From an uncultured Thiotrichaceae bacterium (GTDB lineage Bacteria; Pseudomonadota; Gammaproteobacteria; Thiotrichales; Thiotrichaceae): a stretch of 41,533 nucleotides of DNA. This document shows, in pieces, positions 25,518 through 41,533 of this stretch. Where the stretch lies: positions 1 to 41,533 of the forward strand of contig CALAMO010000003.1 of NCBI GenBank assembly GCA_937925855.1, given 5' to 3'. Numbering within the stretch: the first letter of the stretch is position 1; each line of letters begins with the position of its first letter. The notes under the pieces are model-generated. The model worked only from the letters and a program-made list of their open reading frames with translations, was not told the DNA's origin and did not search any database. The position numbers and the translations under genes are program-made.

Positions 25518-26411
25518 ATGCGCTTAAACCACTTATTGCTTGCCCTACTAGTGACGTTTATCTGGGGGACAAATTTCGTCTTCATTGAGATTGGTCTGCG
25601 CGAATTGCCACCGTTTCTATTTGCTGCGCTACGCTTTCTGCTGGTCGCCTTGCCACTAGTATTTATCCTAGCCCGGCCAGCAGTCAAATACACACAGTTA
25701 GCCAGCTACGGTGTACTGATTGGCTTCGGTCAATTTGGCCTGATGTATTGGGCCATGCAGGACGATATTACCCCCGGCTTAGCCTCATTGGTAATTCAAA
25801 TCCAGGTATTTTTTACCATTTTATTGGCTGCGGCTTTTTTGCGCGAGGCTATTCACCCCGGCCAATGGTTTGCCCTGGGTATTTGCGCGCTGGGCTTAGC
25901 GCTGATCATGCTTTATACCGATGGGCAAACCACCCTCACCGGCCTCGCCGTCATTTTGGTGGCCGCACTAAGCTGGGCGGGTGCTAATCTCATCGTTAAA
26001 CAGTGCGGCGCCGTAGATATTATTGCCTTTATTGCGTGGTCATCACTGTTTGCGGCACCCCCACTATTGGGCATGAGCCTTTATCTCGAAGGCTGGGAAA
26101 CCCTACGCGACAGCCTCAGCAATGCCGGAATAAACAGCTGGGCCGTACTAATCTGGCAAAGCATCGGCAATACGCTCTTGGGTTATGGGCTGTGGAACAT
26201 GCTGTTAAACCGCTATAAGGCTGCAGTAGTGACCCCCTGGGCTTTACTGGTGCCAATCTTTGGCCTAGCAGCCTCTGCACTCAGCCTCGGTGAAACCATG
26301 CCCTGGTGGAAGTGGGCCGCAGCACTACTCATTATCAGCGGCCTGCTGCTCAATCTGCGCGCCATCCACCCAAGAGCAGCGACACGCAAGAGCAGCTCAA
26401 CGCCGCCTTAG
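25518..26411 (+). CDS. EamA/DMT-family transporter
   Basis: A 297-residue inner-membrane protein with about ten hydrophobic helices in two EamA repeats. The N-terminus LLLALLVTFIWGTNFVFIEIGL and the second-repeat start VILVAALSWAGANLIVK are typical of YedA/RhaT-like drug/metabolite transporters. Some members export amino acids, but no substrate can be assigned here. The ribosome site is poor. It converges on bioB with about 50 bases between. Confidence 0.88.
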   Translation: MRLNHLLLALLVTFIWGTNFVFIEIGLRELPPFLFAALRFLLVALPLVFILARPAVKYTQLASYGVLIGFGQFGLMYWAMQDDITPGLASLVIQIQVFFTILLAAAFLREAIHPGQWFALGICALGLALIMLYTDGQTTLTGLAVILVAALSWAGANLIVKQCGAVDIIAFIAWSSLFAAPPLLGMSLYLEGWETLRDSLSNAGINSWAVLIWQSIGNTLLGYGLWNMLLNRYKAAVVTPWALLVPIFGLAASALSLGETMPWWKWAAALLIISGLLLNLRAIHPRAATRKSSSTPP

Positions 26412-26465
26412 CTGCTTTAATTAGACGAGATGGGAACAGCAATGCGAATAGCGGCAGCGAGCGGC

Positions 26466-27458
26466 CTATAGCATGCATCCAGACGTTTGCTCTGGCATAG
26501 ACTCCTCGGCTAAGCGTTCCGGCTGAATGCCCAACCGCTTAAACAACGTCATATCATGATCTTCTTCTGGATTATCCGTCGTCAACAGACGGTCACCATA
26601 AAAAATCGAGTTTGCCCCCGCAAAGAAACACCAGGCTTGCGTTTCATCACTCATCTCAGTGCGACCTGCTGAGAGCCTAACGTAAGACTTAGGCATTAAA
26701 ATCCGTGCCACCGCAATGGTGCGCACAAAATCCAGCGGATCTAACTTATCAATCCCAGCAAGCGGCGTGCCTTTGATTTGCACCAGATCATTAATTGGTA
26801 CCGATTCGGGGTGCACACTCAAATTGGCTAATTGTTGCAACAGACGTGCCCGATCTGTCTCGCTTTCGCCCATGCCCAAAATACCGCCGGAGCAAACATT
26901 AATACCGGCAGCGCGCACATGTTCCAGCGTGTCCAGCCGATCTTGGTAGGTGCGAGTCGTAATCACATTGCCGTAAAATTCAGGCGACGTATCCAGATTG
27001 TGATTGTAGTAGTCCAGTCCAGCCTGTTTTAACCGCCCGGCCTGTGGTTTCGTCAACATGCCGAGCGTCACGCAGGTTTCCATCCCTAAATTACGCACTG
27101 CGCCCACCATTTCAACTACGCGCTCCAAATTTTTATCGGTCGGATTACGCCAAGCAGCACCCATACAAAAACGAGTAGCGCCGCTATCGCGTGCCGCTTG
27201 GGCGCTGCTAATCACTTCATCTAGCGGCAGCAGGCGTTCACGCTCCAGTCCGGTATCATTACGGGCACTTTGTGAACAGTAACTACAATCCTCTGGGCAG
27301 GCTCCCGTTTTAATGCTGAGCAAGGTACTGATTTGCACCTGATTAACCGTGAAGTTTGCACGATGAATTTGGTGAGCCTTAAACATTAAGTCATTGAAGG
27401 GCAACGCAAATAAATCCTTGATCTCGGCCAGTGGCCAATCGTGACGTAATTCATTCAT
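26466..27458 (-). CDS. bioB: Biotin synthase
   Basis: Radical-SAM enzyme inserting sulphur into dethiobiotin, the last step of biotin synthesis. The 330 residues include the CxxxCxxC cluster motif at cysteines 54, 58 and 61 ([13 protein letters not shown]), [14 protein letters not shown] and [10 protein letters not shown]. The length is normal. AAGG lies about ten bases before the ATG. It follows the rplQ terminator, so it should have its own promoter; I could not identify one. No other bio genes are in the window. Confidence 0.96.
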
Positions 27459-27525
27459 ATCTAATCAACCTTAACTTTGTGAGTCCGCTCCGCAGATTTC
27501 ACCTGAAACCCGCTCCACTCAACGC

Positions 27526-27560
27526 AAAAAGCCGGTATGCAATCAAGCAAACCGGCTTTT
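27526..27560 (-). terminator. Intrinsic terminator at the end of the ribosomal operon
   Basis: The two arms, about 14 bases each with one mismatch, centre on AGCCGGT and ACCGGCT around a six-base loop. On the minus strand the stem is followed by five T residues. It lies about 30 bases after the rplQ stop and separates the ribosomal genes from bioB. Confidence 0.88.
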
Positions 27561-27589
27561 ACTTTTTGTCGCCAGCCAGAAAGTAGACG

Positions 27590-27970
27590 CTACGCCTCTT
27601 CTTGCACCTCGCCAGCACCACCTACCAATGAAACATAGGCCATAGGCGCATTATCACCCGCACGGTTACCGCACTTGATGATACGCAAATAACCACCGGG
27701 GCGGCCTTCATAGCGCGGGCCTAAGTCTGTGAACAGCTTCGCCACTACTTCGTTATCACGCAGCCGTGCAAAGGCAATCCGGCGGTTATGCACGGAGTCA
27801 TTCTTAGCACGAGTGATTAATGGCTCAGCCACACGACGCAGCTCTTTAGCCTTGGGCAGTGTGGTTTTAATAGCTTCGTAACGCAACAATGAGTTGGTCA
27901 GACTCTGGAGCAGTGCTTTACGATGACTGCTGTTGCGGCTTAATTGACGACCAATTCTACGATGACGCAT
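27590..27970 (-). CDS. rplQ: 50S ribosomal protein L17
   Basis: Last gene of the alpha operon. The 126-residue protein starts [20 protein letters not shown], the family signature, and contains [22 protein letters not shown]. It lies near the exit tunnel of the large subunit. It follows rpoA directly and precedes a strong terminator. Confidence 0.97.
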
Positions 27971-28022
27971 GATAATTATCCTTCAGAGTAGCTGCTGATA
28001 AAAGCAGGTATAAATAACGCTA

Positions 28023-29027
28023 TCAGGCTACTTTACTGTCTTTGTGATCCAGCCCCGCAGGTGGCCAGTTGTCAAGTTTGGTTCCCAGCGTCAAACCGTG
28101 GGAGGCCAGCACATCTTTAATTTCTGTCAGTGACTTCTTGCCTAGGTTAGGCGTCTTCAACAATTCGGTCTCGGTACGCTGTACCAAGTCACCGATATAA
28201 TAAAGATTTTCTGCCTTCAGACAGTTGGCGGAACGAACCGTCAGCTCAAGATCGTCTACCGGGCGCAATAGCACCGGCTCAATCTCGGGCTGCTCTTCTT
28301 CCTGCTTAACAGGCTCCTCAATCTTAAGATCAAAGAATACCGTCAACTGCTGTTGCAGAATTTGTGCGGCCATACTCAGTGCGTTTTCAGCATCCACCGA
28401 ACCATCTGTCTCAATTTCAACGATAAGCTTATCCATATCGGTGCGCTGTTCAACCCGCGCACTGTCGACATTATAAGCCACCCGCAGAATCGGACTGTAG
28501 CTAGCATCCAATACCAGCGTGCCGAGTGGCAACTCAGGTGAATCAGGACCACGTCGTACCGAAGCAGGCTGATAACCACGCCCACCGGTAATGGTTAAAT
28601 TCATTTCCAGCTCGACGTCGTCCTTGGTGATGTGGGCAATGACGTGATCGGGATCGACGATTTCGACATCATGATCCAGTTCAATATCTGCCGCAGTCAC
28701 TGGACCAACGCCTTTTTTCTTCAGAGTTAGCGTTGCTTCTTCACGCGCATTAAGCCGAATCGCCAAGGTTTTTAGGTTTAGCAGGATTTCGACAACATCC
28801 TCCTGCACACCTTCCATCGAGGTGTATTCGTGTACCACGCCTGCGATTTGAACTTCAGTGATTGCACTGCCTGGAATAGAAGACAGTAAAATCCGGCGCA
28901 GCGCATTACCTAGGGTATGCCCAAAACCACGCTCTAGCGGCTCAAGTGTGATCCTGGATGTATTTAATCCAAGCTCCTGAACCTGTACATTGCGTGGCTT
29001 TAGTAAATCTATCGTTTTAGAGGTCAT
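28023..29027 (-). CDS. rpoA: RNA polymerase alpha subunit
   Basis: Scaffold for RNA polymerase assembly; its C-terminal domain contacts UP elements and activators. I chose the ATG giving [15 protein letters not shown] (334 residues), which matches the family start and has AGG seven bases ahead. An in-frame ATG 54 bases earlier lies inside a hairpin loop. The N-terminal domain shows [19 protein letters not shown]; the C-terminal domain has [17 protein letters not shown] and ends with the DNWPP segment. An acidic EEEQPEIEP linker separates the domains. Confidence 0.96.
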
Positions 29028-29069
29028 GCTAGTACCTGTAACCGTATTATGAATCGAAGTGACTGATGC

Positions 29070-29097
29070 GGCTGTTTCCATCTCATTGGAAACAGCC
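29070..29097 (-). promoter_or_regulatory. Perfect 10-bp hairpin between rpsD and rpoA
   Basis: GGCTGTTTCC and GGAAACAGCC flank an eight-base loop. There is no T tract on the minus strand, so it is not a standard terminator. It sits 42 bases before the chosen rpoA start, with an unused in-frame ATG in the loop. It may be an mRNA processing or stability element, or a site for autogenous control by S4; both are inference. Confidence 0.6.
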
Positions 29098-29108
29098 TAA
29101 ACAAATTG

Positions 29109-29729
29109 TTACTTAGAGTACAATTCCACAATCAGTGATTCATTAATTTCAGCCGGCAAATCAGAACGATCAGGTACAGACTTAAATGTACCTTCCAGTT
29201 TCTTGGCGTCGACTTCTACCCAACCGGGAAAACCTAACTGCTCCGCAACGTTCATCGAATCCTGAATACGCGCTTGCTTTTTAGCACGCTCACGAACCGA
29301 TACTACGTCGCCGGGCTGAACCTGATAAGAAGCAATATTAACGATTTTATCGTTAACCATGATTGCTTTGTGGCTTACCAGCTGGCGTGACTCGGCGCGT
29401 GTAGAACCGTATCCCATGCGATAAACTACGTTATCAAGACGGCCTTCCAGCAGTTTCAGCAGATTTTCACCTGTTGCACCTTTGGTTTTCGCAGCCTTCT
29501 TATAATAATTACGGAACTGCTTTTCCAGCACACCATAAATGCGGCGTACCTTCTGCTTTTCACGCAGCTGAATGCCATAATCAGACAGGCGGGTACGGCG
29601 CTCACCGTGTACACCCGGCACCTTATCCAGCTTACATTTTTTCTCAAGAGAGACACCGCGACTCTTGAGATACAAATCTGTACCTTCGCGTCTGCTCAGT
29701 TTACAGGTTGGTCCAGTATATCTTGCCAT
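29109..29729 (-). CDS. rpsD: 30S ribosomal protein S4
   Basis: Primary 16S rRNA binder and, in E. coli, translational repressor of the alpha operon. It has 206 residues; the N-terminus [16 protein letters not shown] lacks the four-cysteine zinc site, so this is the zinc-free form. The S4 RNA-binding domain includes [20 protein letters not shown]. It sits between rpsK and rpoA. Confidence 0.97.
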
Positions 29730-29744
29730 TGTCAGATCCTCCCG

Positions 29745-30143
29745 TTACACACGACGCTTTTTAGGTGGGCGACAACCGTTATGTGGAATCGGTGTCACAT
29801 CGGTAATGTTAGTGATTTTATAGCCTGCATTATTTAATGCACGGATCGCGGACTCACGTCCCGGCCCTGGGCCTTTAACTTCAACATCGAGATTTTTCAG
29901 ACCGTAATCCTTGGCAGCGTTTCCAGCACGTTCCGCTGCAACCTGTGCGGCAAACGGCGTGCTCTTTCGTGAACCACGAAACCCAGAACCACCAGAGGTC
30001 GCCCAAGCGAGTGCGTTTCCTTGGCGGTCGGTAATCGTGACAATGGTATTGTTAAACGACGCATTGATATGCGCCACACCGTCAGTCACGACCTTTTTAA
30101 TCTTTTTTCGGGTGTTTGCACCCTTTCTTGGCTGTTTTGCCAT
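29745..30143 (-). CDS. rpsK: 30S ribosomal protein S11
   Basis: Platform protein of the small subunit. The 132 residues include [35 protein letters not shown] and the basic C-terminus [12 protein letters not shown]. It has standard length and place between S13 and S4. Confidence 0.97.
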
Positions 30144-30165
30144 AACGTTTACTTCCTGCTAAGCC

Positions 30166-30522
30166 TTATTTCCGAATCGGACGACGCGGACCTTTACGGG
30201 TACGTGCATTAGTCTTACTGCGCTGACCACGCAATGGCAGACCACGACGATGACGAATACCGCGATAACATCCCATGTCCATCAAACGCTTGATATTCAT
30301 GGAAACTTCACGGCGCAGATCGCCTTCAATCAGGTATTTGCTGACTTCAGCACGTACTTTTTCAAGATCTTCTTCGCTCAGGTCACGGATTTTTGTTGCA
30401 GGCGTAATGCCTGATGCAGCACAAATATCCTTTGAGCGTGACAGTCCAATCCCATAAATTGAGGTTAAACCAATAACCGCATGCTTATTTACAGGAAGAT
30501 TAATACCCGCAATACGAGCCAT
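30166..30522 (-). CDS. rpsM: 30S ribosomal protein S13
   Basis: Head protein that contacts P-site tRNA and the large subunit. I chose the ATG giving [19 protein letters not shown] (118 residues, the usual length), with GGAG about ten bases upstream. A longer open frame would add 15 unrelated residues and would begin upstream of the predicted transcript start. [11 protein letters not shown] and the C-terminal [17 protein letters not shown] are typical. First gene of the alpha operon. Confidence 0.97.
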
Positions 30523-30555
30523 TAATGATATCTCCAGATTCTCGGGAAGCGCGCG

Positions 30556-30584
30556 ATTATGCCGCAAACCCGCTTATTTATCAA
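30556..30584 (-). promoter_or_regulatory. Sigma70-type promoter of the alpha operon
   Basis: On the minus strand TTGATA (30579-30584) and CATAAT (30556-30561) are 17 bases apart. The next seven bases are all G/C, the discriminator type found at stringently controlled ribosomal promoters. Transcription would start near 30549 and leave a leader of only about 27 bases before rpsM. Confidence 0.7.
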
Positions 30585-30593
30585 CAAATAACC

Positions 30594-30674
30594 CCTGTTT
30601 AAAAAAACTGTCGTCTCAAACATCCAACAAACAGTTTAAACAGAGGCTATTCAAGGTCTTACCCCCGTGGGGGG
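30594..30674 (-). other. Inverted repeats in the rpmJ-rpsM gap
   Basis: Three dyads lie between the spc and alpha gene sets. CCCCC-GT-GGGGG is at 30662-30673. AAACTGT/ACAGTTT pair at 30605-30611 and 30631-30637, with T residues after the stem on the minus strand. CTGTTTAAA/TTTAAACAG also pair, at 30595-30603 and 30635-30643. None has the strong GC stem plus T tract of a clear terminator, so the spc transcript may partly read through. Confidence 0.4.
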
Positions 30675-30687
30675 AAAACAATCTGTT

Positions 30688-30801
30688 TTAACCCTGACGC
30701 TGCTTATGGCGCGGATCAGAGCAGATCACTCTTACAACGCCGTTCCTGCGGATAACCCGGCAGTTACGGCACATCTTTTTAACCGAAGCTCTTACCTTCA
30801 T
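30688..30801 (-). CDS. rpmJ: 50S ribosomal protein L36
   Basis: The smallest ribosomal protein, at the end of the spc operon. It has 37 residues: [19 protein letters not shown], then [18 protein letters not shown]. Cysteines 11, 14 and 27 with histidine 32 make the zinc-ribbon form. The gene lies 30 bases after secY. Confidence 0.97.
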
Positions 30802-30831
30802 AACAAAACCTCTTAGACTCTCTACGCCAGA

Positions 30832-32175
30832 TTACTTCCGCACCACCGAACCGGGGCGGGTATGTGACTTAAAATTTGCTTTCTTCATAAGACCTTCATA
30901 CTGATGCGACATCATGTGTGATTGCATCTGTGCCAGAAAGTCCATCACTACAACAACAATGATCAACAGTGAAGTGCCGCCAAAGTAGAAAGGTACGTTC
31001 CAACCCAAAATCAAGAACTCGGGCAATAAACAAACCAAAGTAATATAAATAGCACCAACCGCTGTCAGGCGAGTCATCACACCATCAATGTACTGCGTTG
31101 TTTTCTCACCGGGGCGAATACCAGGAATAAATGCACCCGCCTTCTTTAAATTGTCCGCCATCTCGCGGGAGTTATGTACTAACGCCGTGTAAAAAAAGCA
31201 GAAGAAGACAATTGCCAGTGCATAAAAAATCACATACAGCGGCTGGCCGGGTTGCAACAGATTGAAAAACTGCGCCACGATGCCATCGCTATTACCACCC
31301 GTCATCCACTGCCCAGCCGTTGCTGGAAACAAAATAATACTGGAAGCAAAAATGGGCGGAATAACCCCAGCCATATTTAGCTTGAGCGGCAGGTGACTAG
31401 ACTGTCCCTGATACATTTTACGGCCTTGCTGTCGATTCGCATAATTGACAGTGATTCTACGTTGACCTTTCTCAATGAAGATAACAAAAGCCGTTACTAG
31501 CAGAACCAGTGCAATCAACAGAATAACAAAAGCGGGCGACAGCTCGCCAGTGTTTGCCAGTTCCAGCGTACCACCAATCGCAGCCGGCAATCCCGCTACG
31601 ATGCCCGCAAAGATAATTAGCGATATACCGTTACCAATACCACGCTCGGTGATCTGCTCACCCAACCACATCAAGAACAAAGTGCCAGTCACCAAGGTGA
31701 CTACCGTAGTAATGATAAAGCCGATACCAGGGTTAATCGCAATGCCTTGACCACCGAGAGCAATCGATACACCAATACTTTGGAACAATGCCAATACCAC
31801 GGTACCGTAGCGAGTGTACTGGGTGATTTTACGCCGCCCAGCCTCACCCTCTTTCTTGAGCTGCTCAAGATAAGGGACGACCGTAGCCATTAATTGCATA
31901 ATGATCGACGCAGAAATGTAAGGCATGATGCCAAGCGCAAATACACTAAGCCGTTCTAGTGCACCGCCGGAAAACATATTGAATACGCCCAGAATCGTGC
32001 CGCTGTTCTGGTTAAAAAATTGAGCCATAGCGGCAGGATTTACACCAGGAACCGGTATAAAAGTACCAATACGATAAACGACCAAAGCCATCAGTACGAA
32101 TAAAAGACGCTGACGAACTTCAACCATGTTTCCAAAACCTCCGAGGGAGGCTGCTGATGCAGGTGCTTTGGCCAT
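30832..32175 (-). CDS. secY: Preprotein translocase subunit SecY
   Basis: Channel-forming subunit of the Sec translocon in the inner membrane. The 447 residues contain about ten membrane helices. Family landmarks are [14 protein letters not shown] at the first helix, the [16 protein letters not shown] plug/helix region, [11 protein letters not shown] (here [12 protein letters not shown]) and the cytoplasmic loop with [17 protein letters not shown]. It lies eight bases after rplO. Confidence 0.97.
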
Positions 32176-32183
32176 GAGTATTA

Positions 32184-32618
32184 TTATTCTCCGATTGTAC
32201 CGCCTGCTGCCTCGATTGCTTCTTTCGCGCCTTTAGTGACACCAACGCCTTGGACAGTCACCGCTTTCTCAACTGTACCCGAAAGAATAATCTTAGCCTG
32301 CAGCGTGCGCGCATCTATGACATTAGCCGCTTTCAATGTTTCCAGTGAGACAATATCACCGTCTACCTTGGCTAGCTCGCTTAAACGTACTTCCGCAGTA
32401 CGCCGTCCGATGCGCGAAGTGAAACCCACTTTTGGCAGACGCTGCTTCAAAGGCATCTGACCGCCTTCAAAACCAATTCTAATCTTACCACCAGTGCGAG
32501 ATTTTTGGCCTTTGTGGCCGCGTCCAGCTGTTTTGCCTAAGCCTGAACCGATACCACGCCCCACACGGGTGCGTAGTTTACGACTGCCTTTGGCTGGCTG
32601 TAATGTGTTCAGTTTCAT
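32184..32618 (-). CDS. rplO: 50S ribosomal protein L15
   Basis: Late-assembling large-subunit protein of 144 residues. The N-terminus [20 protein letters not shown] and the glycine-rich [22 protein letters not shown] are diagnostic. Essentially adjacent to rpmD. Confidence 0.97.
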
Positions 32619-32619
32619 C

Positions 32620-32808
32620 TCAGGCTTCCTCTACTTTCAGCATGTAGGAAATTTTTTTGATCATGCCACGATTCTCTGGCGTATCAATTACTGTAACCGA
32701 ATTGTGCATCTTTCGAATACCCAAACCCGCAGCACACTGCTTATGGCTTTTGAGTCGTCCGTTTAGACTACGCACTAAGGTCAGTTTAACCTGTTTAGCC
32801 TCAGCCAT
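32620..32808 (-). CDS. rpmD: 50S ribosomal protein L30
   Basis: Short 62-residue protein: [20 protein letters not shown], then [21 protein letters not shown]. Normal for bacterial L30. It sits one base from rplO and three from rpsE. Confidence 0.96.
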
Positions 32809-32811
32809 GAC

Positions 32812-33330
32812 TTACCCCTTAATCTCTTCAACAGTTTTACCGCGCTTAGCTGCGATGTTTTCAGGGTCTTGCATCGAAGCGAGTCCGGCGATAGTCGCAC
32901 GCACTACATTACCCGGATTACGGGTGCCGACACATTTAGACAGCACGTTACGTACACCCATCACTTCCAATACTGCACGCATCGCACCTCCGGCGATTAC
33001 GCCAGTACCTTCTGATGCAGGCTTCATAAATACACTAGCAGCACCGACTGAATGGTTGATTGGGTACTGCAGTGTTCCATCAACCAATGGCACGGTGATC
33101 ATAGTCTTACGTGCTTGCTCCATCGCTTTTTGAATCGCAGCGGGAACTTCACGCGCTTTACCGTAACCGAAACCAACGCGACCATTACCGTCACCCACAA
33201 CGGTTAGCGCGGTGAAGCTGAAAATACGCCCACCTTTAACCACTTTTGATACACGGTTAACGTGAACTAGTTTTTCTTGCAGGCCGTCAGCAGCGGCTGT
33301 TGAATTATCTGGCTTTGCCATCAGACTCAA
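32812..33330 (-). CDS. rpsE: 30S ribosomal protein S5
   Basis: Decoding-fidelity protein of 172 residues. It shows [39 protein letters not shown] and the C-terminal-domain segment [20 protein letters not shown]. Length and neighbours are standard. Confidence 0.97.
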
Positions 33331-33333
33331 TCC

Positions 33334-33687
33334 TTAAAATTGCAGGCCAGCTTCACGCGCAGCATCCGCTAACGCTTTGATACGACCATGATACTTAAAA
33401 CCGGAGCGATCAAAGGCAACAGACTCCACCCCTTTCTCACGCGCACGTTCAGCGATCAGCTTACCCACCGTAGCGGCTGAATCCATATTACCTGTGTAAC
33501 TCTCACCTTCACGCAGTGCTTTCTCAACCGTTGAGGCAGACGCCAATACGGTATCGCCCTGTGGCGCAATGATTTGAGCATAAATATGTTGTGGCGTACG
33601 GTGCACACACAGACGTGTAACCTGTAACTCACGCATCTTGCCACGCGCACGCTTACTGCGACGAATACGACTAATTTTCTTATCCAT
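33334..33687 (-). CDS. rplR: 50S ribosomal protein L18
   Basis: 5S rRNA-binding protein of 117 residues: [20 protein letters not shown], then [20 protein letters not shown] near the end. Basic N-terminus [15 protein letters not shown]. Standard. Confidence 0.97.
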
Positions 33688-33698
33688 CTTATGCCACC

Positions 33699-34232
33699 TT
33701 ACTTCTTCTTGGCTTCTTTGCGCACGATGTGCTCACCTGCATATTTCACACCTTTGCCTTTATAAGGCTCTGGCGGACGGTATGCGCGAATTTCCGCAGC
33801 GACCTGGCCGACTTTCTGCTTGTCGATGCCGCGGATAACAATTTCAGTCTGACTTGGCGTTTCAGCCGTCACACCATCAGGCATCTCATGCACTACTGGA
33901 TGCGAAAAGCCCAGCGTCAGATTAACCTGATTACCTTGTGCCTGTGCACGGTAACCAACACCAACTAACTGCAATTTCTTTTCAAAACCAGCGCTAACGC
34001 CCGTCATCATATTATTGGTAACCGCACAGGTTGTCCCTGCCTGCGCCCATGCACCGGGCACGTCGTGACGCGGTTGAAAACGCAACAGATTATCATCCAG
34101 GGCAACTTCAACATCTTTGTGCACGACATAGTCGAATACACCTTTGCTGCCCTTGATATTCAGATTCTGCCCATCAATTTTGACTTCTACACCGCTAGGC
34201 AGCGTAAGTCCTCGTTTTGCAATTCGTGACAT
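33699..34232 (-). CDS. rplF: 50S ribosomal protein L6
   Basis: Stalk-base protein of 177 residues starting [20 protein letters not shown]. The C-terminal signature [18 protein letters not shown] is intact. Standard length and position between S8 and L18. Confidence 0.97.
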
Positions 34233-34247
34233 GACAATCTGCCTACC

Positions 34248-34643
34248 TTACTCAACCGTACAGATTATTTCGCCACCTTGCCCTGCTGCACGCGCAGCAC
34301 GACCACTCATCACACCCGAAGATGTTGAGACGATAGCGACACCATAACCACCCATCACTGTGGGCAGCTCATTTTTACCTTTAAACAGGCGCAAACCAGG
34401 ACGGCTAGCACGCGCTAGACGACTGATAACCGGTTTACCCTGAAAATACTTTAGCTCAACTGTAGTGACTGGCTTACCACCATTCTCATCAGTGCTATAA
34501 CTGGTTACATAGCCTTCATCGACCAAAACATCAAGAATGGCTTTTTTCTGGCGCGACGCCGGAAATGACACATTGGCTTTACTGGCTTGCTGGCCGTTAC
34601 GAATACGGGTCAGCATATCAGCGATTGGATCACTCATACTCAT
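34248..34643 (-). CDS. rpsH: 30S ribosomal protein S8
   Basis: 16S rRNA binder and, in E. coli, repressor of the spc operon. The 131 residues begin [20 protein letters not shown]. The C-terminal signature is [20 protein letters not shown]. Standard. Confidence 0.97.
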
Positions 34644-34656
34644 GACATATTTCTCC

Positions 34657-34962
34657 TTACCAGCTTGCCTTAGTTAAACCGGGCACATCACCGCGCATTG
34701 CAGCTTCACGTAGTTTATTACGGCACAGACCAAACTTACGGTAAACCGCATGTGGCCGGCCCGTCACACTACAACGACGCTGCTGCCTTACTGCGCTACC
34801 GTTACGTGGCAGCTTTTGCAGTTTTTCACTCGCAGCCATAACGTCCTCATAAGCACTTTCTGGACTGCTGATAATGGCTTTCAGTGCGGCACGCTTTGCA
34901 GCATCTTTAGCCACCGCTTTTGCACGTTTTGCTTCACGCGCAATCATGGATTTTTTCGCCAT
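34657..34962 (-). CDS. rpsN: 30S ribosomal protein S14 (zinc-free form)
   Basis: A 101-residue long-form S14: [40 protein letters not shown], and [11 protein letters not shown] at the end. The zinc cysteines of the short form are absent, as in most gammaproteobacteria. The gene is preceded by a 67-base gap with a hairpin. Confidence 0.97.
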
Positions 34963-34981
34963 GAGTTTCTATCCTCTTCTG

Positions 34982-35025
34982 TGTAAGTCAATGACTTACA
35001 GGCTTGCAGGGGTATACCTTACAGG
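34982..35025 (-). promoter_or_regulatory. Hairpin with competing direct repeat before rpsN
   Basis: TGTAAGTC / GACTTACA form a perfect 8-bp stem with a three-base loop at 34982-35000. On the minus strand the CCTGTAAG half occurs twice, 23 bases apart, so the CTTACA arm could pair with either copy. There is no T tract. It lies about 20 bases before the S14 start; a regulatory role is inference. Confidence 0.5.
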
Positions 35026-35029
35026 CGCG

Positions 35030-35569
35030 TTACTGTTTAAAAGGGAACTTGAACGCTGCCAGCAGCGCACGCCCTTCTTCGTCAGTTTTAGCAGTGGTGG
35101 TAATCGTAATATTCATACCGCGCAGTGCATCGATTTTATCGTAATCAATTTCTGGGAAAATGATCTGCTCTTTGATACCCATGTTGTAATTACCACGGCC
35201 ATCAAAAGCTTTAGCATTCAAACCACGGAAATCACGAATACGAGGAATAGAAACGTTAATTAAACGATCCAAAAACTCGTACATACGTTCTTTACGCAAG
35301 GTCACTTTACAGCCAATCGGCCAACCATCACGAATCTTAAATCCTGCGATAGACTTGCGGCTCATGGTGACTACAGTCTTTTGACCTGCAATTTTTTCCA
35401 TATCGCCGACAGCGTGTTCGATAACCTTTTTGTCACCGACTGCCTCACCCAAACCCATATTAAGGGTGATTTTCGTGATTTTGGGGACTTCCATCACGTT
35501 TTTAAAACCGAGCTGTTCCGTCAGTTCTGCGATGACGGTATCACGGTAATATTGCTGTAACCTTGCCAT
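35030..35569 (-). CDS. rplE: 50S ribosomal protein L5
   Basis: 5S rRNA-binding protein of 179 residues. [40 protein letters not shown] and [20 protein letters not shown] identify it. It starts 13 bases after rplX, the region where S8 binds in E. coli; here the rplX end can form only a 5-bp stem (AGCCT/AGGCT). Confidence 0.97.
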
Positions 35570-35582
35570 GAATGTATATACC

Positions 35583-35900
35583 TCAAGCCTCTACAGGCTC
35601 GCCATTGGATTTGAAGACACGGATTTTATCGCCGTTTTCCAGGAGCTTGAACCCAACACGGTCACCCTTGCCAGTGGCAGGATTGACCAGCATGACATTA
35701 GATACTTCCAGCGGCATTGTTTTATCAACAATTCCACCGGCAACACCCAATGTCGGATTTGGCTTCTGGTGCTTCTTAACTACATTCACACCATTAACCA
35801 GAATTTTTCCATTCGCAAACACTTGTGAAATAGTGCCGCGACGACCTTTGTCTTTGCCCGTGATAACAACAACTTCATCACTTTTACGGAGCTTACGCAT
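35583..35900 (-). CDS. rplX: 50S ribosomal protein L24
   Basis: Assembly-initiating protein of 105 residues with the KOW motif [15 protein letters not shown]. It continues [16 protein letters not shown]. Standard. Confidence 0.97.
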
Positions 35901-35925
35901 TACGTCACCTACTTATCTGTTACTT

Positions 35926-36294
35926 CTAAAGCACTTCAGGTGCTAGAGAAATAATCTTCATGAAGCGATCACCACGCAATTCACGTGTAACCGGACCAAA
36001 GATACGAGTACCAATCGGCTCAAGCTTGGCGTTTAGCAGTACTGCTGCATTGCCATCAAAGCGAATGGTCGAACCATCACTGCGACGCACACCTTTAGCC
36101 GTACGCACAACGACTGCGTTGTAAACATCGCCTTTTTTTACCTTACCGCGTGGAATGGCATCTTTAATACTGACTTTAATCACATCCCCAATACCCGCGT
36201 ACCGACGATGAGAACCACCCAAAACTTTGATACACATCACACGGCGTGCACCACTATTGTCTGCAATTTGCAGCTCAGACTGCATTTGGATCAT
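35926..36294 (-). CDS. rplN: 50S ribosomal protein L14
   Basis: A 122-residue protein: [20 protein letters not shown], the family signature, then [20 protein letters not shown], ending SLAPEVL. First gene of the classical spc set. Standard length. Confidence 0.97.
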
Positions 36295-36315
36295 GTCTAT
36301 TCTCCCGCCTTAGGA

Positions 36316-36579
36316 TTAGCTAACAGCGCGCTCAACAACTTTCAGAAGCGTCCAGTGCTTACTCTTCGACAGAGGGCGACACTCTTTAAAAGTTACGGTA
36401 TCACCCATATTGCACTCGTTGTTCTCATCGTGCACATGGTACTTCTTAGAACGCTTAATAAACTTACCGTACAAAGGATGCTTGATCTGACGTTCCATCA
36501 TAACAACAATGGTTTTATCCATTTTGTTACTAACGACACGACCCGTTAAACTACGTTCAACAACTGCTTCTTCACTCAT
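36316..36579 (-). CDS. rpsQ: 30S ribosomal protein S17
   Basis: An 87-residue OB-fold protein: [37 protein letters not shown], and [17 protein letters not shown]. Overlaps rpmC by four bases. Confidence 0.97.
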
Positions 36580-36779
36580 CCTGTTTCACCTGCACGTTGC
36601 TTTTCAGACAGGACCGTTTTGATCCGTGCGATTTCACGCCGGACACGCTTTACTTCAGAGGAGCGTGTCATTTGTCCGGCTGACTGTTGCATACGCAACT
36701 TGAATTGCTCTTTGTAATTCTCAGTCAGTTCTGCACTCAGCTCGACCGCTGATTTTTCACGGAGTTCAGCTGCTTTCAT
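36576..36779 (-). CDS. rpmC: 50S ribosomal protein L29
   Basis: A 67-residue two-helix protein at the tunnel exit: [20 protein letters not shown], then [11 protein letters not shown], then [15 protein letters not shown]. It overlaps rplP by one base and rpsQ by four. Confidence 0.96.
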
Positions 36780-37192
36780 TACATCACCTGCCGCTTAACA
36801 AAAGTCGTTTTGAAAGGAAACTTAGCCGCAGCCAGCTTGAAGGCTTCACGCGCCATCTCTTCTGAAACACCCTGCATTTCAAACAAAACGCGACCTGGTT
36901 GAATCTGCGCTACCCAGTATTCAACATTACCTTTACCTTTACCCATCCGCACTTCTAAGGGCTTCTTGGTAATTGGCTTATCTGGAAAAACGCGAATCCA
37001 AATTTTCCCACCACGACGGATATGACGATTAATCGCACGACGACCAGCTTCAATCTGGCGAGCAGTCATCCGACCACGCTCAACCGCTTTAAGGCCGTAT
37101 TCGCCGAAACTTACTTTATTCCCGCTTTGCGCCAGACCGCGATTACGGCCTTTATGCTGTTTGCGAAATTTGGTTCTCTTGGGTTGTAACAT
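36779..37192 (-). CDS. rplP: 50S ribosomal protein L16
   Basis: A 137-residue protein beginning [40 protein letters not shown] and [20 protein letters not shown] are family signatures. Standard. Confidence 0.97.
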
Positions 37193-37204
37193 CTTGAACC
37201 TCTA

Positions 37205-37894
37205 TCACTTCTTCTTTCTACCCTGACCTGCGCCAGAGTTAGATTGTTTCTGCTCAAGGTCAAAGACCTCACCCTTAAATACCCAAACCTTGATACCGAT
37301 AATACCGTAGGTAGTCAGTGCTTCAGCAGTCGCATAGTCGATATCCGCACGCAGCGTATGCAACGGCACACGACCTTCTCGATACCACTCTGTACGTGCG
37401 ATTTCCGCACCATTCAGACGACCAGCAACACTCACCTTAATACCCAAAGCACCGAGACGCATGGCATTGCCTACCGCACGCTTCATCGCACGACGAAACA
37501 TTATGCGACGTTCTAATTGGCTAGCAATGCTTTCAGCAACCAGCAAGGCATCAAGCTCAGGCTTACGAATTTCTTCAATATTCAACTTCACGTTATTGAT
37601 ATGAATGTCCATGATTCTGGCCACTTCATTGCGCAAACGCTCAATATCTTCACCTTTCTTACCAATCACCATACCCGGACGTGCAGTATGGATTGTAATA
37701 TAGGCAGACTTCGCCGGACGCTCAATTTGAATCCGGCTCACAGAAGCATCTTTAAGGCGCTTTTTTAAATAAGCGCGCACTTCCAAATCTTTATGCAGGA
37801 ACTCAGCGTAATCCTTGCCTTCCGCATACCACTTTGCACGCCAGTCGGCTGCAATGCCGAGACGTATACCAGTTGGATGTACTTTTTGACCCAT
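37205..37894 (-). CDS. rpsC: 30S ribosomal protein S3
   Basis: mRNA-entry protein of 229 residues. [14 protein letters not shown] starts it; the KH domain shows [16 protein letters not shown]; the C-terminal domain has [20 protein letters not shown]. The basic tail ends GRKKK. Standard. Confidence 0.97.
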
Positions 37895-37908
37895 GATTGA
37901 CCTCAGAC

Positions 37909-38241
37909 TTACTTATCACCAACCGCAACAGTGATATGACTGGTACGCTTTAAAATACGATTTGCACGACCCTTAGCCCGTGGACGAATACGCTTCATCG
38001 TTGGCCCCTGATCTACAAATACACTCGTGACTGAAAGCTCATCCACATCAGCACCTTCATTGTGCTCTGCGTTGGCAATCGCCGACTCTAAGACTTTCTT
38101 CATCATCGCCGCCCCTTTTTTGGGGCTAAACGCCAAAATATCTAGCGCTTTGTCAACCGGCAGGCCACGAATCTGATCTGCTACTAACCGACCTTTCTGA
38201 GGCGAGAGACGCGCAAAGCGTAACTTAGCTGCAACTTCCAT
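37909..38241 (-). CDS. rplV: 50S ribosomal protein L22
   Basis: Tunnel-lining protein. I chose the ATG giving [20 protein letters not shown] (110 residues, the usual length) with GAGG six bases upstream. An earlier in-frame start would overlap rpsS and add 15 atypical residues. [14 protein letters not shown] and the C-terminal [20 protein letters not shown] are typical. Confidence 0.97.
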
Positions 38242-38251
38242 AGCGAACCTC

Positions 38252-38527
38252 TTACTTCTTCGACTTTTTATCGGCAGCATGACCACGATAAGAACGGGTT
38301 AATGCAAACTCGCCTAATTTGTGACCTACCATATTTTCATTGATCAAAACGGGAACATGTTGCCTACCGTTATGAACTGCAATGGTCAAACCCACCATAC
38401 TGGGCGAGATCATTGAGCGACGTGACCAAGTTTTAATCGGCTTACGATCATTGTTCGCAACTGCCGTGTCAACTTTCTTAACCAAATGATGGTCAATAAA
38501 GGGACCTTTCTTAAGTGAACGTGGCAC
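38252..38527 (-). CDS. rpsS: 30S ribosomal protein S19
   Basis: A 91-residue head protein: [19 protein letters not shown], then [40 protein letters not shown] and [18 protein letters not shown]. Standard. Confidence 0.97.
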
Positions 38528-38540
38528 TGTCTAATTCCTC

Positions 38541-39368
38541 TTACTTCTTATTACGGCGGCGAACAATCATCTTGTCCGTACGTTTGTTACTACGCGTCTT
38601 GTGTCCCTTCGTCGGCACACCCCAAGGTGAAACAGGATGACGCCCACCTGAAGTACGGCCTTCACCGCCTCCATGTGGATGATCCACTGGATTCATCGCA
38701 ACGCCGCGAACCGTTGGACGCACACCACGCCAGCGCTTCGCACCTGCCTTACCCAGTTTAGTCAAACCATGTTCAGAATTACTCACTTCGCCAATGGTAG
38801 CGCGACATTCTGCCAAAACTTTACGCATTTCACCGGAGCGCAAGCGCAAGGTAGCATGTGCACCTTCCTTAGCTACCAACTGAGCCGATGTACCGGCGCT
38901 ACGTGCCATCTGTGCACCTTTACCTGGCTTCATTTCAATACAGTGGATAACCGTACCCACCGGGATATTACGCATAGGCAGCGCATTACCAACAGAAATA
39001 GAAGCGTGCTGACCGGACTGCACAGTGTCGCCTGCAGCCAGTTTGCGTGGCGCAATAATGTAGCGACGCTCGCCATCGGCATACAGTAGCAATGCAATGT
39101 TCGCACTACGATTAGGGTCGTATTCCAGATGCTCAACTTTTGCAGGAATATCATCCTTACGCCGCTTGAAATCAATCATGCGGTAATGTTGACGATGGCC
39201 ACCACCAATGTGGCGCACAGTGATACGACCATTATTATTCCGGCCGCCACTCTTGGTTTTACGGTCTAACAGAGCTTTACAAGGTTCGCCCTTGTGCAGA
39301 TCTTTATTAACAACGCGAACCTGAAAGCGACGCCCCGGAGAGGTTGGTTTTGCCTTAACGACTGCCAT
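38541..39368 (-). CDS. rplB: 50S ribosomal protein L2
   Basis: Peptidyl-transferase-region protein of 275 residues. [20 protein letters not shown] starts it, and the active-site segment [20 protein letters not shown] carries the conserved histidine. The basic C-terminus reads [11 protein letters not shown]. Standard. Confidence 0.97.
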
Positions 39369-39382
39369 AACTTAGCTCTTCC

Positions 39383-39685
39383 TTATTCCGCTGAAGCATC
39401 AAGTGAATGACCTTCAGCCAGGCGTACATACGCCTTTTTCCAGTCGCTGCGTTTACCGGCGCGACGGCTAAAGTTCTTTTGCTTACCCTTAACATTTACA
39501 GTCTGCACACCATCAACTTCAACTTCAAATAATGTTTGCACTGCCTGTTTAATGTCAGATTTAGACGCTGACTTAGCGACTTTAAAGACATACTGATTAG
39601 ATGACTCAGACGCTAAAACCGTCTTTTCAGTCATACGAGGTGCCAGTAACACCTGATATAAATGATCCTGATTCATGCCAGCCAC
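39383..39685 (-). CDS. rplW: 50S ribosomal protein L23
   Basis: Tunnel-exit protein, the docking site of trigger factor and SRP. It has 100 residues: [20 protein letters not shown], then [20 protein letters not shown]. It overlaps rplD by 13 bases, so it is translationally coupled. Confidence 0.97.
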
Positions 39686-40272
39686 TCCTGCACTTTTTCA
39701 ACAGCGCTTTTACTCATCACGACTTTTTCGTGACCAACCAGATTAACCGGATTCAAGCCTGCGGCAGTCGCATATTCGCAGTGAGGAATATTACGCGAAG
39801 CCAGCAGCACATTAACATCATCAACATCTGAGACCAACAACACATCATTAGTGCCATAATCGTGCAGCTTAGCTGACAGGCTTTTGGTTTTACCGTCCGA
39901 CTCAATCGCATCAACCACCACTAGGCGCTCTTGACGCACCAGCTCAGAAAGAATTGAACGCATCGCCACACGATACATTTTCTTATTTAGTTTCTGACTA
40001 AAGTCACGCGGCTTGGCAGCAAAAGTAACACCACCCGAACGCCAGATCGGACTACGGATAGTACCCGCACGCGCACGCCCCGTTCCTTTTTGGCGAAATG
40101 GCTTAGCGCCACCGCCGCTGACCGCAGAGCGATTTTTTTGCGCCTTAGTACCAGAACGGCCCGCAGCCATATAAGCTACTATCGCCTGATGCACCAACCC
40201 CTCGTTGAAATCGCGACCGAATACTTCGTCATTCACAGCAACGGATCCGCCATTAGCTACTTGCAATTCCAT
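39673..40272 (-). CDS. rplD: 50S ribosomal protein L4
   Basis: A 199-residue protein; in E. coli it also represses the S10 operon by attenuation. The tunnel loop is clear: [40 protein letters not shown]. Relevant here because a terminator-like hairpin lies in the rplC leader. Confidence 0.97.
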
Positions 40273-40281
40273 AATTAATCC

Positions 40282-40914
40282 TTACGCCTTCTCAGATGGC
40301 TTGATCGAGATATTGCCACCCGTTGCACCCGGAACAGCACCCTTAACCAATACCAGATTACGCTCAGCGTCGACACGCACCACTTCAAGGCATTGCGTCG
40401 TAGTATTCACATTACCCATCTGACCGGACATCTTCTTACCAGGAAATACACGACCCGGCGTTTGGTTCTGACCAATAGAGCCAGGAGTACGATGGGAAAT
40501 CGAGTTGCCGTGCGTTGCGTCTTTACCTTTAAAGTTATGCCGCTTAATCGTTCCGGCAAAACCTTTACCTTTACTGACACCAGACACATCTACTTTTTGA
40601 CCGGCTTCAAACAAAGACACCGTCAACTCAGCACCCAACTCATATTCGGAGGCAGCATCGATCCGCGACTCGCGCACAAACGTACCTGCTGGCACACCCG
40701 CCTTGGCAAAGTGGCCCGCAACAGGCTTACTGACACGCGATGCTTTGCGCTCACCCACAGACAACTGAATCGCTTCGTAGCCATCAGTCTCAACAGTTTT
40801 CACCTGAGACACACGATTGGGCGCAATCTCCAAAACGGTGACCGGCACAGAATCGCCTGAATCACCGAAAATACGGGTCATCCCAACTTTGCGACCCAAC
40901 AGACTGATAGCCAT
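40282..40914 (-). CDS. rplC: 50S ribosomal protein L3
   Basis: Assembly-initiating protein. I chose the ATG giving [20 protein letters not shown] (210 residues) with AGAGG eight bases upstream; a longer frame would start nine codons earlier without family support. The loop near [20 protein letters not shown] holds the conserved glutamine. Likely the first gene of its own transcription unit, given the promoter in front. Confidence 0.97.
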
Positions 40915-40973
40915 TTGCTTAACCTCTTTAAAATCACCCAAAAGCAGGTGAATTCACTGAATTTTGTCTTTAG

Positions 40974-41004
40974 AAAAACTCGGCCCGACGAGATGTCGAG
41001 CCGA
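40974..41004 (-). terminator. Terminator-like hairpin (putative attenuator) in the rplC leader
   Basis: On the minus strand TCGGCTCGAC and GTCGGGCCGA form a 10-bp stem (one G-U pair) with a five-base loop, followed by G and five T residues. It would end tuf-rpsJ transcripts. Because it lies only a few bases after the predicted start of the rplC transcript, it could also attenuate that transcript. Confidence 0.8.
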
Positions 41005-41016
41005 AGAAAGCCGCGC

Positions 41017-41045
41017 ATTATACATAGAAAGTTAATGCACGTTAA
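41017..41045 (-). promoter_or_regulatory. Sigma70-type promoter upstream of rplC
   Basis: On the minus strand TTAACG (41040-41045) and a perfect TATAAT (41017-41022) are 17 bases apart, followed by the GC-rich discriminator GCGCGGC. The predicted start near 41010 gives a leader of about 96 bases before rplC. Confidence 0.7.
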
Positions 41046-41060
41046 GCATTAATTTCCATA

Positions 41061-41372
41061 TCAGTTCAACTTAATTTGAACGTCCACACCTGCAGCCAAG
41101 TCAAGCTTCATCAACGCATCAACTGTCTTATCCGTAGGATTCACAATGTCCATCAAACGCTTGTGTGTACGGATCTCATACTGATCACGCGCATCCTTAT
41201 TGACGTGCGGTGAAATCAGAATGGTGTGGCGCTCGATCCGCGTTGGCAACGGGATAGGCCCCTTGACGCGCGCACCTGTGCGTTTGGCTGTTTCAACGAT
41301 TTCCAGCGCAGAACGATCAATCAAGCGATGATCGAATGCTTTCAGGCGAATTCTAATTCTCTGGTCAGACAT
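41061..41372 (-). CDS. rpsJ: 30S ribosomal protein S10
   Basis: A 103-residue protein, also known as NusE in antitermination: [19 protein letters not shown], then [20 protein letters not shown]. It begins five bases after the tuf stop and its ribosome site would fall within the end of tuf, so it is coupled to tuf. The 146-base gap to rplC separates it from the rest of the S10 gene set. Confidence 0.97.
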
Positions 41373-41377
41373 AATAG

Positions 41378-41533
41378 TTACTCAATAATCTTAGAAACAA
41401 CGCCCGCACCCACGGTACGGCCACCTTCACGAATCGCAAATCGCAGACCGTCTTCCATCGCGATCGGTGCGATTAGGGTAACCGTCATTTTCACGTTATC
41501 ACCTGGCATCACCATCTCAATGCCTTCTGGCAG
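41378..41533 (-). CDS. tuf: Elongation factor Tu, C-terminal 51 residues (cut by window edge)
   Basis: Delivers aminoacyl-tRNA to the ribosome. Only the end of domain 3 is in the window: [18 protein letters not shown] at the edge, then [20 protein letters not shown] and the terminal SKIIE. The reading frame is open to the window end. It lies directly upstream of rpsJ, the usual str-S10 junction, but with an unusually short gap. Confidence 0.97.

Follow-up and report, generated by a model that had tools for sequence, protein, structure and literature searches.

A conserved promoter-linked hairpin between rpsJ and rplC in an uncultured Thiotrichaceae bacterium and its counterparts across the class

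The window studied here (the whole stretch of DNA that was analysed, 41,533 nucleotides from an uncultured Thiotrichaceae bacterium) carries, between the genes for ribosomal proteins S10 (rpsJ) and L3 (rplC), a promoter followed at once by a GC-rich hairpin and a T tract. This promoter-hairpin arrangement is genuine and conserved, and it belongs to a broader pattern of which we found no description in the literature searched (titles and abstract openings); nor did that literature yield any account of an rpsJ-rplC leader. By sequence comparison, the hairpin is a start-anchored element present in many families of the class. We propose, with a probability of about 0.5, that the rplC promoter, the hairpin and the U tract form a shared gate, which would end the transcripts of the str cluster and meter transcription of the S10 operon. 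The finding bears on which genes belong to the controlled unit in different lineages, and an examination confined to the region upstream of rpsJ would miss both this hairpin and the E. coli-type attenuator loop described below.

The rpsJ-rplC gap in the window and its family

The features of the region are:

41061..41372, minus strand: rpsJ (S10; NCBIfam PRK00596/TIGR01049)
41045-41040, minus strand: -35-like hexamer TTAACG, kept in 9 of 9 gaps of genus g1 (L001-L009)
41022-41017, minus strand: -10 hexamer TATAAT, with a 17-nt spacer from TTAACG
41006..41016, minus strand: GC-rich discriminator and start region GCGCGGCTTTC, strongly conserved in alignment A4 (25 selected family sequences)
41005-40979, minus strand: start-anchored hairpin with a GGCTCGAC/GTCGGGCC core, 11 pairs (7 G-C), loop of 5
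40978-40974, minus strand: U tract TTTTT, directly after the hairpin
40934..40951, minus strand: small stem TCACC (40951-40947)/GGTGA (40938-40934), before the rplC ribosome site
40923..40927, minus strand: Shine-Dalgarno-like AGAGG of rplC, invariant in alignment A3
40282..40914, minus strand: rplC (L3; TIGR03625), first gene 3' of the leader, start set by homology

On the minus strand, tuf (running off the contig end) is followed by rpsJ, the gap (40915-41060, 146 nt) and rplC; the next gene, rplD, encodes L4. A start of rplC at TTG 40941 was rejected, as relatives align from about the Met of ATG 40914 and have an ATG there. With the start at ATG 40914, the second, small stem that had been noted near the L3 ribosome site falls within the gap thus corrected, and is indeed present. 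The rpsJ ATG lies just 5 nt beyond the stop codon of tuf. In a relative with a four-contig assembly (L185), rpsL-rpsG-fusA-tuf-rpsJ follow one another at intergenic distances of 2-22 nt, and a 142-nt gap then precedes rplC. No promoter-like site was seen on the coding strand between tuf and rpsJ of this relative, and the hairpin is the sole terminator-like site on the coding strand of its rpsJ-rplC gap, the other three lying inside rplC. Because rpsJ abuts tuf, the S10 operon effectively starts at rplC; the proposal of the sequence-only reading that S10 stands outside this unit is borne out by the spacing in the window and by the tight packing of the relative's cluster up to rpsJ.

The promoter of the form TTAACG-17-TATAAT, the GC-rich discriminator, the stem and the T tract that this reading had described are all there on the minus strand, the stem amounting to 11 pairs. 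The discriminator reads GCGCGG and is followed by CTTTC and then by the stem-loop. We predict a transcription start at about 41010-41011 from the sequence, and on this assumption the hairpin begins at about +6 and the U tract ends at about +37. A promoter scan by itself is weak (4 found versus 3.6 expected), and the promoter is credible because it is conserved: a -10 hexamer of the form TATAAT, CATAAT, TATAGT or TATATT stands before a GC-rich start in 57 of 57 complete family gaps, the hexamer being chosen by script as that with the highest G+C after it, save in L024, where it was assigned by hand. The hairpin has the makings of an intrinsic terminator, namely a GC-rich stem with the U tract immediately after it. 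The stretch 40935-41010 folds with a z-score of -3.5, and the start hairpin folds in read-through RNA too. We scanned for a -10 hexamer (at most one mismatch) with a perfect stem of at least 7 pairs, 5 or more of them G-C, starting 9-16 nt on and at least 5 T in the next 6 positions. With both strands of the 41.5-kb window searched, this gap is the only place that has the combination. None of 2000 first-order Markov sequences generated with the composition of the gap contains it, and a one-strand search of 20 Markov versions of the window gave no occurrence. No Rfam family matched the gap at E<=5.

Two other readings of the start region were set aside. As a general start signature of r-protein genes in this genome it fails, with TATAATGCGCGNC having a single exact occurrence there and the two further exact sites of TATAATGCGCG both lacking a start hairpin after them on inspection. 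Two sequences of genus g3 have CGCTCTTTA at the start, which could be read as boxA-like, but it is not kept in other genera.

Our family sample comprises 63 genomes, 58 of them with rplC and 57 with a complete rpsJ-rplC gap; the 58th gap (L179) is cut by a contig end and enters the 58 gap sequences as a 55-nt fragment. By a fixed criterion (7 or more stem pairs, 4 of them G-C, and a T run of at least 4), a terminator-like hairpin is present in 50 of the 57 complete gaps, across 8 genera. Three of the 50, from genus g6 (L028, L029 and L031), form another stem, beginning 3 nt downstream of the -10. Good stems with T runs of only 3 occur in L033, L019 and L022, and the hairpin is degraded in L177, L178, L181 and L184. 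In alignment A4, which holds 25 of the 57 sequences selected by hand with the g6 and degraded hairpins excluded, 94.1% of cells are paired and 19 are double changes, values matched by 0 of 500 shuffles. Conservation of the stem in close relatives, the check that had been proposed beforehand, is thus seen in the 50 of 57 gaps and in the covariation of these selected sequences. As a further feature of genus g2 (L011-L015, L162-L172), 9 of 16 folds pair the first transcribed CUUUC with a GAAAG located 3' of the U tract, enclosing the hairpin.

The small stem, with 5-6 pairs, is kept in 13 selected sequences of 3 genera with 7 double-change cells; three of five covariation measures lie above all shuffles and two do not. 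Its loop is not conserved.

A start-anchored element in other families of the class

Outside the family, rplC was found in 133 genomes of the class, mostly one per family, and the gaps of 94 of these were examined. In some, a -10 is likewise followed by a short start region and then by a GGCCCG...CGGGCC hairpin. Hand-picked class examples make up alignments A1 and A2, and a covariance model (R2) was built from 17 sequences, none from the window's family. When searched against 39 of the 57 family loci, R2 finds 35 at E<=0.014 and two more weakly, missing two; since the model includes the -10, part of these matches reflects the promoter. The window site scores 43.2 bits (E 1.1e-7), lies 61 nt before rplC with a -10 distance of 14 nt, and is the only strong match in its genome among the 150 of 747 candidates scored. 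The second match there (22.7 bits, E 0.026) was read as falling within a gcvT-like coding region, and the fourth, a non-significant 17.1 bits, is one of the extra TATAATGCGCG sites.

Across 370 genomes of the class, R2 gave at least 44 matches in 43 genomes, and 40 of the 44 precede rplC by 35 to 208 nt (36 placed directly, four from coordinates). Of the 43 genomes, 16 were sources of training sequences and four belong to the window's family; among the other 23, the match lies upstream of rplC in 20. These scans scored only 15 candidates per genome for R2 and 20 for the model R1 introduced below, under stricter filters, and the genome counts for both are hence lower bounds. The four matches elsewhere comprise one inside an amino-acid-kinase ORF (L337), one after a response-regulator ORF (L338), a weak one in the 5' portion of an ORF resembling yajC (L334) and another weak one that precedes an infA-like gene by about 380 nt (L336).

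The distance from the -10 to GGCYCG, taken from 34 of the 36 on-target elements listed (L289 and L291 omitted), is 14 nt in 22, 13 nt in 7, 15 nt in 3 and 12 nt in 2, and loop length varies among the same 34. A near-fixed distance combined with a varying loop indicates that the element is anchored on the transcription start. Its stem base GGCYCG/CGGGCC is conserved beyond what pairing asks for. A T run of at least 5 follows the hairpin in only 4 of 19 families, which suggests that the ancestral role of the start hairpin was probably not intrinsic termination; termination is probably a property added in the window's family.

The element bears a likeness to the rimP leader: both are short terminator-like hairpins with a sequence-conserved stem. 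According to PMC2965389, some gammaproteobacterial rimP leaders have an upstream terminator of the form CCCg...cGGG, the main rimP motif being GGGc...gCCC. The former resembles GGCCCG...CGGGCC, the common form of the start hairpin, and the window's own stem is CUCG...CGGG. The rimP leader lies upstream of rimP-nusA-infB, whereas the window element lies upstream of rplC. The Rfam rimP model is not among the three matches in window positions 26000-41533 at E<=5, and RimP_N is not found in the window's own genome at E<=0.001, so the comparison remains a lead.

Further structures were seen around such promoters. In the window, the -35/-10 region itself (41012-41041, minus strand) forms a hairpin CGUGCAUUA/UAAUGCGCG in read-through RNA, and so does that of a relative in the same genus (L008). 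In Thiobacillus-type gaps (L062, L079, L105, L127), a perfect or near-perfect inverted repeat, e.g., GGGCGGCAT/ATGCCGCCC, spans a -10-like TATAAT, so that read-through RNA would fold the promoter region. In L214 (family f143), a second near-perfect hairpin with a four-T run was seen by eye immediately before the promoter, which in this family is flanked by terminator-like hairpins on both sides.

The E. coli-type attenuator loop and L4 control

The E. coli locus (L130) has CCC-AUCAAUCGUAAU-GGG before rpsJ, which is presumably stem E, judging from its position and from its AGG, AGU and AAC sequences. The three short sequences are those given in PMC10578931; according to this paper and PMC10931766, the attenuator hairpin (stem E) precedes rpsJ in E. 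coli, and L4 acts in that leader with NusA. The E. coli and window leaders share several features: each has a promoter with a TATAATGCGCGG start and leader hairpins, one of them terminator-like, and each precedes the first gene of an S10-type r-protein operon. They differ in that the E. coli leader lies directly before rpsJ and the window leader between rpsJ and rplC, and in that the terminator-like hairpin sits at about +6 in the window versus late in the approximately 170-nt leader of E. coli.

A third difference concerns the attenuator loop, which we sought as 12 nt of the type RUCAAUCGNAAU closed by at least 3 pairs. Upstream of rpsJ it occurs in 24 of 173 rpsJ loci, these being all 24 Enterobacterales examined (the order taken narrowly and assigned by genus name). 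No loop of this type closed in this manner was found before rpsJ in the loci examined from Vibrionaceae, Aeromonas, Shewanella, Pseudoalteromonas and Pasteurellaceae. Upstream of rplC it occurs in 26 other loci of the 173. We did not find this E. coli-type loop before rplC in other families described in the literature searched, and report it as a side result. Loops of this type just before rplC are seen in gamma- and betaproteobacterial loci such as L062, L131, L190, L195, L214, L236 and L246. Twelve loci beyond the window were without any Rfam match at E<=0.5, and L062, L063, L125 and L131, which have the loop before rplC, are among them.

A second model (R1), built from 20 rplC-type sites with 28 double-change cells (0 of 500 shuffles), finds this attenuator-type hairpin at E<=0.001 in at least 33 of 370 class genomes, in 33 of 33 upstream of rplC (32 placed directly, one from coordinates); 15 of the 33 genomes gave training sequences and 18 gave none. 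Between E 0.001 and 0.05, a search of 149 genomes added 11 matches, two before rplC (G113 and G154), seven elsewhere and two in genomes in which no rplC was found, and these off-site matches mean that R1 is specific only at the stricter cut-offs. Applied to the pre-rpsJ hairpin of Enterobacterales, on which it was not trained, R1 matches 12 of 12 loci with E from 8.7e-4 to 0.7, an unrelated locus (L112) scoring 0.031.

In the window's family, the loop is found in none of the 58 gap sequences, which include the 55-nt fragment, and R1 gives 0 matches in 39 loci at E<=10. Hence, the suggestion of an arrangement analogous to that of E. coli one gene later stands for other families, in which an E. 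coli-type attenuator—a distinct hairpin close to the ribosome site in the same gap and operon—precedes rplC, and is not supported for the window's own family, in which the loop was not found. The more specific idea that the window hairpin is itself the analogue of the L4 attenuator is likewise unsupported, given these counts and the fact that the hairpin's relatives are mostly without a U tract. As judged from sequence, L4 control of the window leader is not supported, and direct L4 binding as in E. coli would lack its known target here.

A more far-reaching scheme, which we regard as possible but doubtful, is that in much of the class the control region lies between rpsJ and rplC and consists of two distinct RNA parts: the CCCG/CGGG hairpin anchored on the start, which NusA may read, and a loop of the L4 type by the rplC ribosome site; the window's lineage would have lost the L4 part, leaving the start hairpin, now an intrinsic terminator, to gate the operon alone. 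If this were true, L4 control would be ancient in the class and would have moved along with the operon boundary, instead of having arisen late on the E. coli branch. With the attenuator loop and the start hairpin located before rplC, the age of S10-operon feedback can be tested directly.

Other r-protein leaders have been proposed for genes of the S10 region. According to PMC7247131, the candidates include an L4 leader of Archaeoglobi and an L2 leader of Alphaproteobacteria, which belong to other lineages and are likened here by description, not by structure. Separately, the rpsJ-rplC gap of TMED92-like genomes (L053, L057, L061) is 239-251 nt long and contains sequences like GGCUCCGAUAGGGAGCC, which are similar to hairpins found upstream of rpsJ in Photobacterium (L069) and Parashewanella (L098). 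These may correspond to hairpin D, which in E. coli lies ahead of stem E in the leader.

A shared gate and its alternatives

Under the preferred reading, the str cluster would end with rpsJ, and the S10 operon proper would begin at rplC, transcribed from a sigma-70-type promoter of its own that has a GC-rich discriminator, the GC-rich hairpin opening the S10 transcript about 6 nt after +1. As a U tract follows the hairpin in the family, the hairpin should act as an intrinsic terminator, and on part of the transcripts it would release an RNA of about 37 nt. Being 3' of both the promoter and rpsJ, it would have to be passed by polymerases from the str cluster and by those from the rplC promoter alike. 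A candidate regulator of the gate is NusA, since the conserved-stem terminators of rimP-nusA leaders have been tentatively ascribed to it in PMC2965389 and it has a published part in S10 attenuation in E. coli; the CCCG/CGGG likeness of the stems is a resemblance only. A point against the gate is that a terminator placed directly behind a promoter squanders transcripts if it is neither regulated nor leaky, and no antiterminator for the rplC leader was found.

The main rival, because most families are without a U tract, is that the hairpin serves the S10 mRNA as a stem-loop at its 5' terminus or as a protein-binding leader, with a role in stability or translation control, the U tract being incidental. 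The near-fixed -10 distance of the 34 elements with their variable loops, the lack of a T run of 5 or more in 15 of 19 families and the preservation of the stem base beyond pairing all fit such a role. Within the family, however, a T run of at least 4 is kept in 50 of 57 gaps from 8 genera while other gap sequence diverges, and we hold this explanation to be rather unlikely for the window. It is improbable, too, that the hairpin merely terminates the str-rpsJ transcript with rplC transcribed from elsewhere or by read-through: rpsJ does abut tuf, and no terminator-like site was found between rpsJ and the hairpin in L185, but a -10 stands ahead of the hairpin in 57 of 57 gaps at a constrained distance, and L214 has its separate hairpin and four-T run upstream of the promoter.

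A role as L4-responsive attenuator, on a par with the E. coli S10 leader, would suit the position relative to the unit's first gene, the presence of rplD next in line, the E. coli-type loop before rplC in other families and the small stem located where that hairpin would be. With neither the loop nor an R1 match in the family and with a small stem that has no conserved loop, we consider it quite improbable. The near-expectation result of the promoter scan taken by itself might point to a chance hairpin beside a chance promoter; against the 0 of 2000 random gaps, the conservation across 8 genera with covariation and the sole strong R2 match in the genome, the likelihood of such a coincidence is negligible. 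The shared gate is the reading that we prefer to these.

Elsewhere in the window, Rfam RF00140 (alpha operon ribosome binding site) matches positions 30490-30579 (minus strand) below its gathering threshold, at 29.5 bits versus 38.
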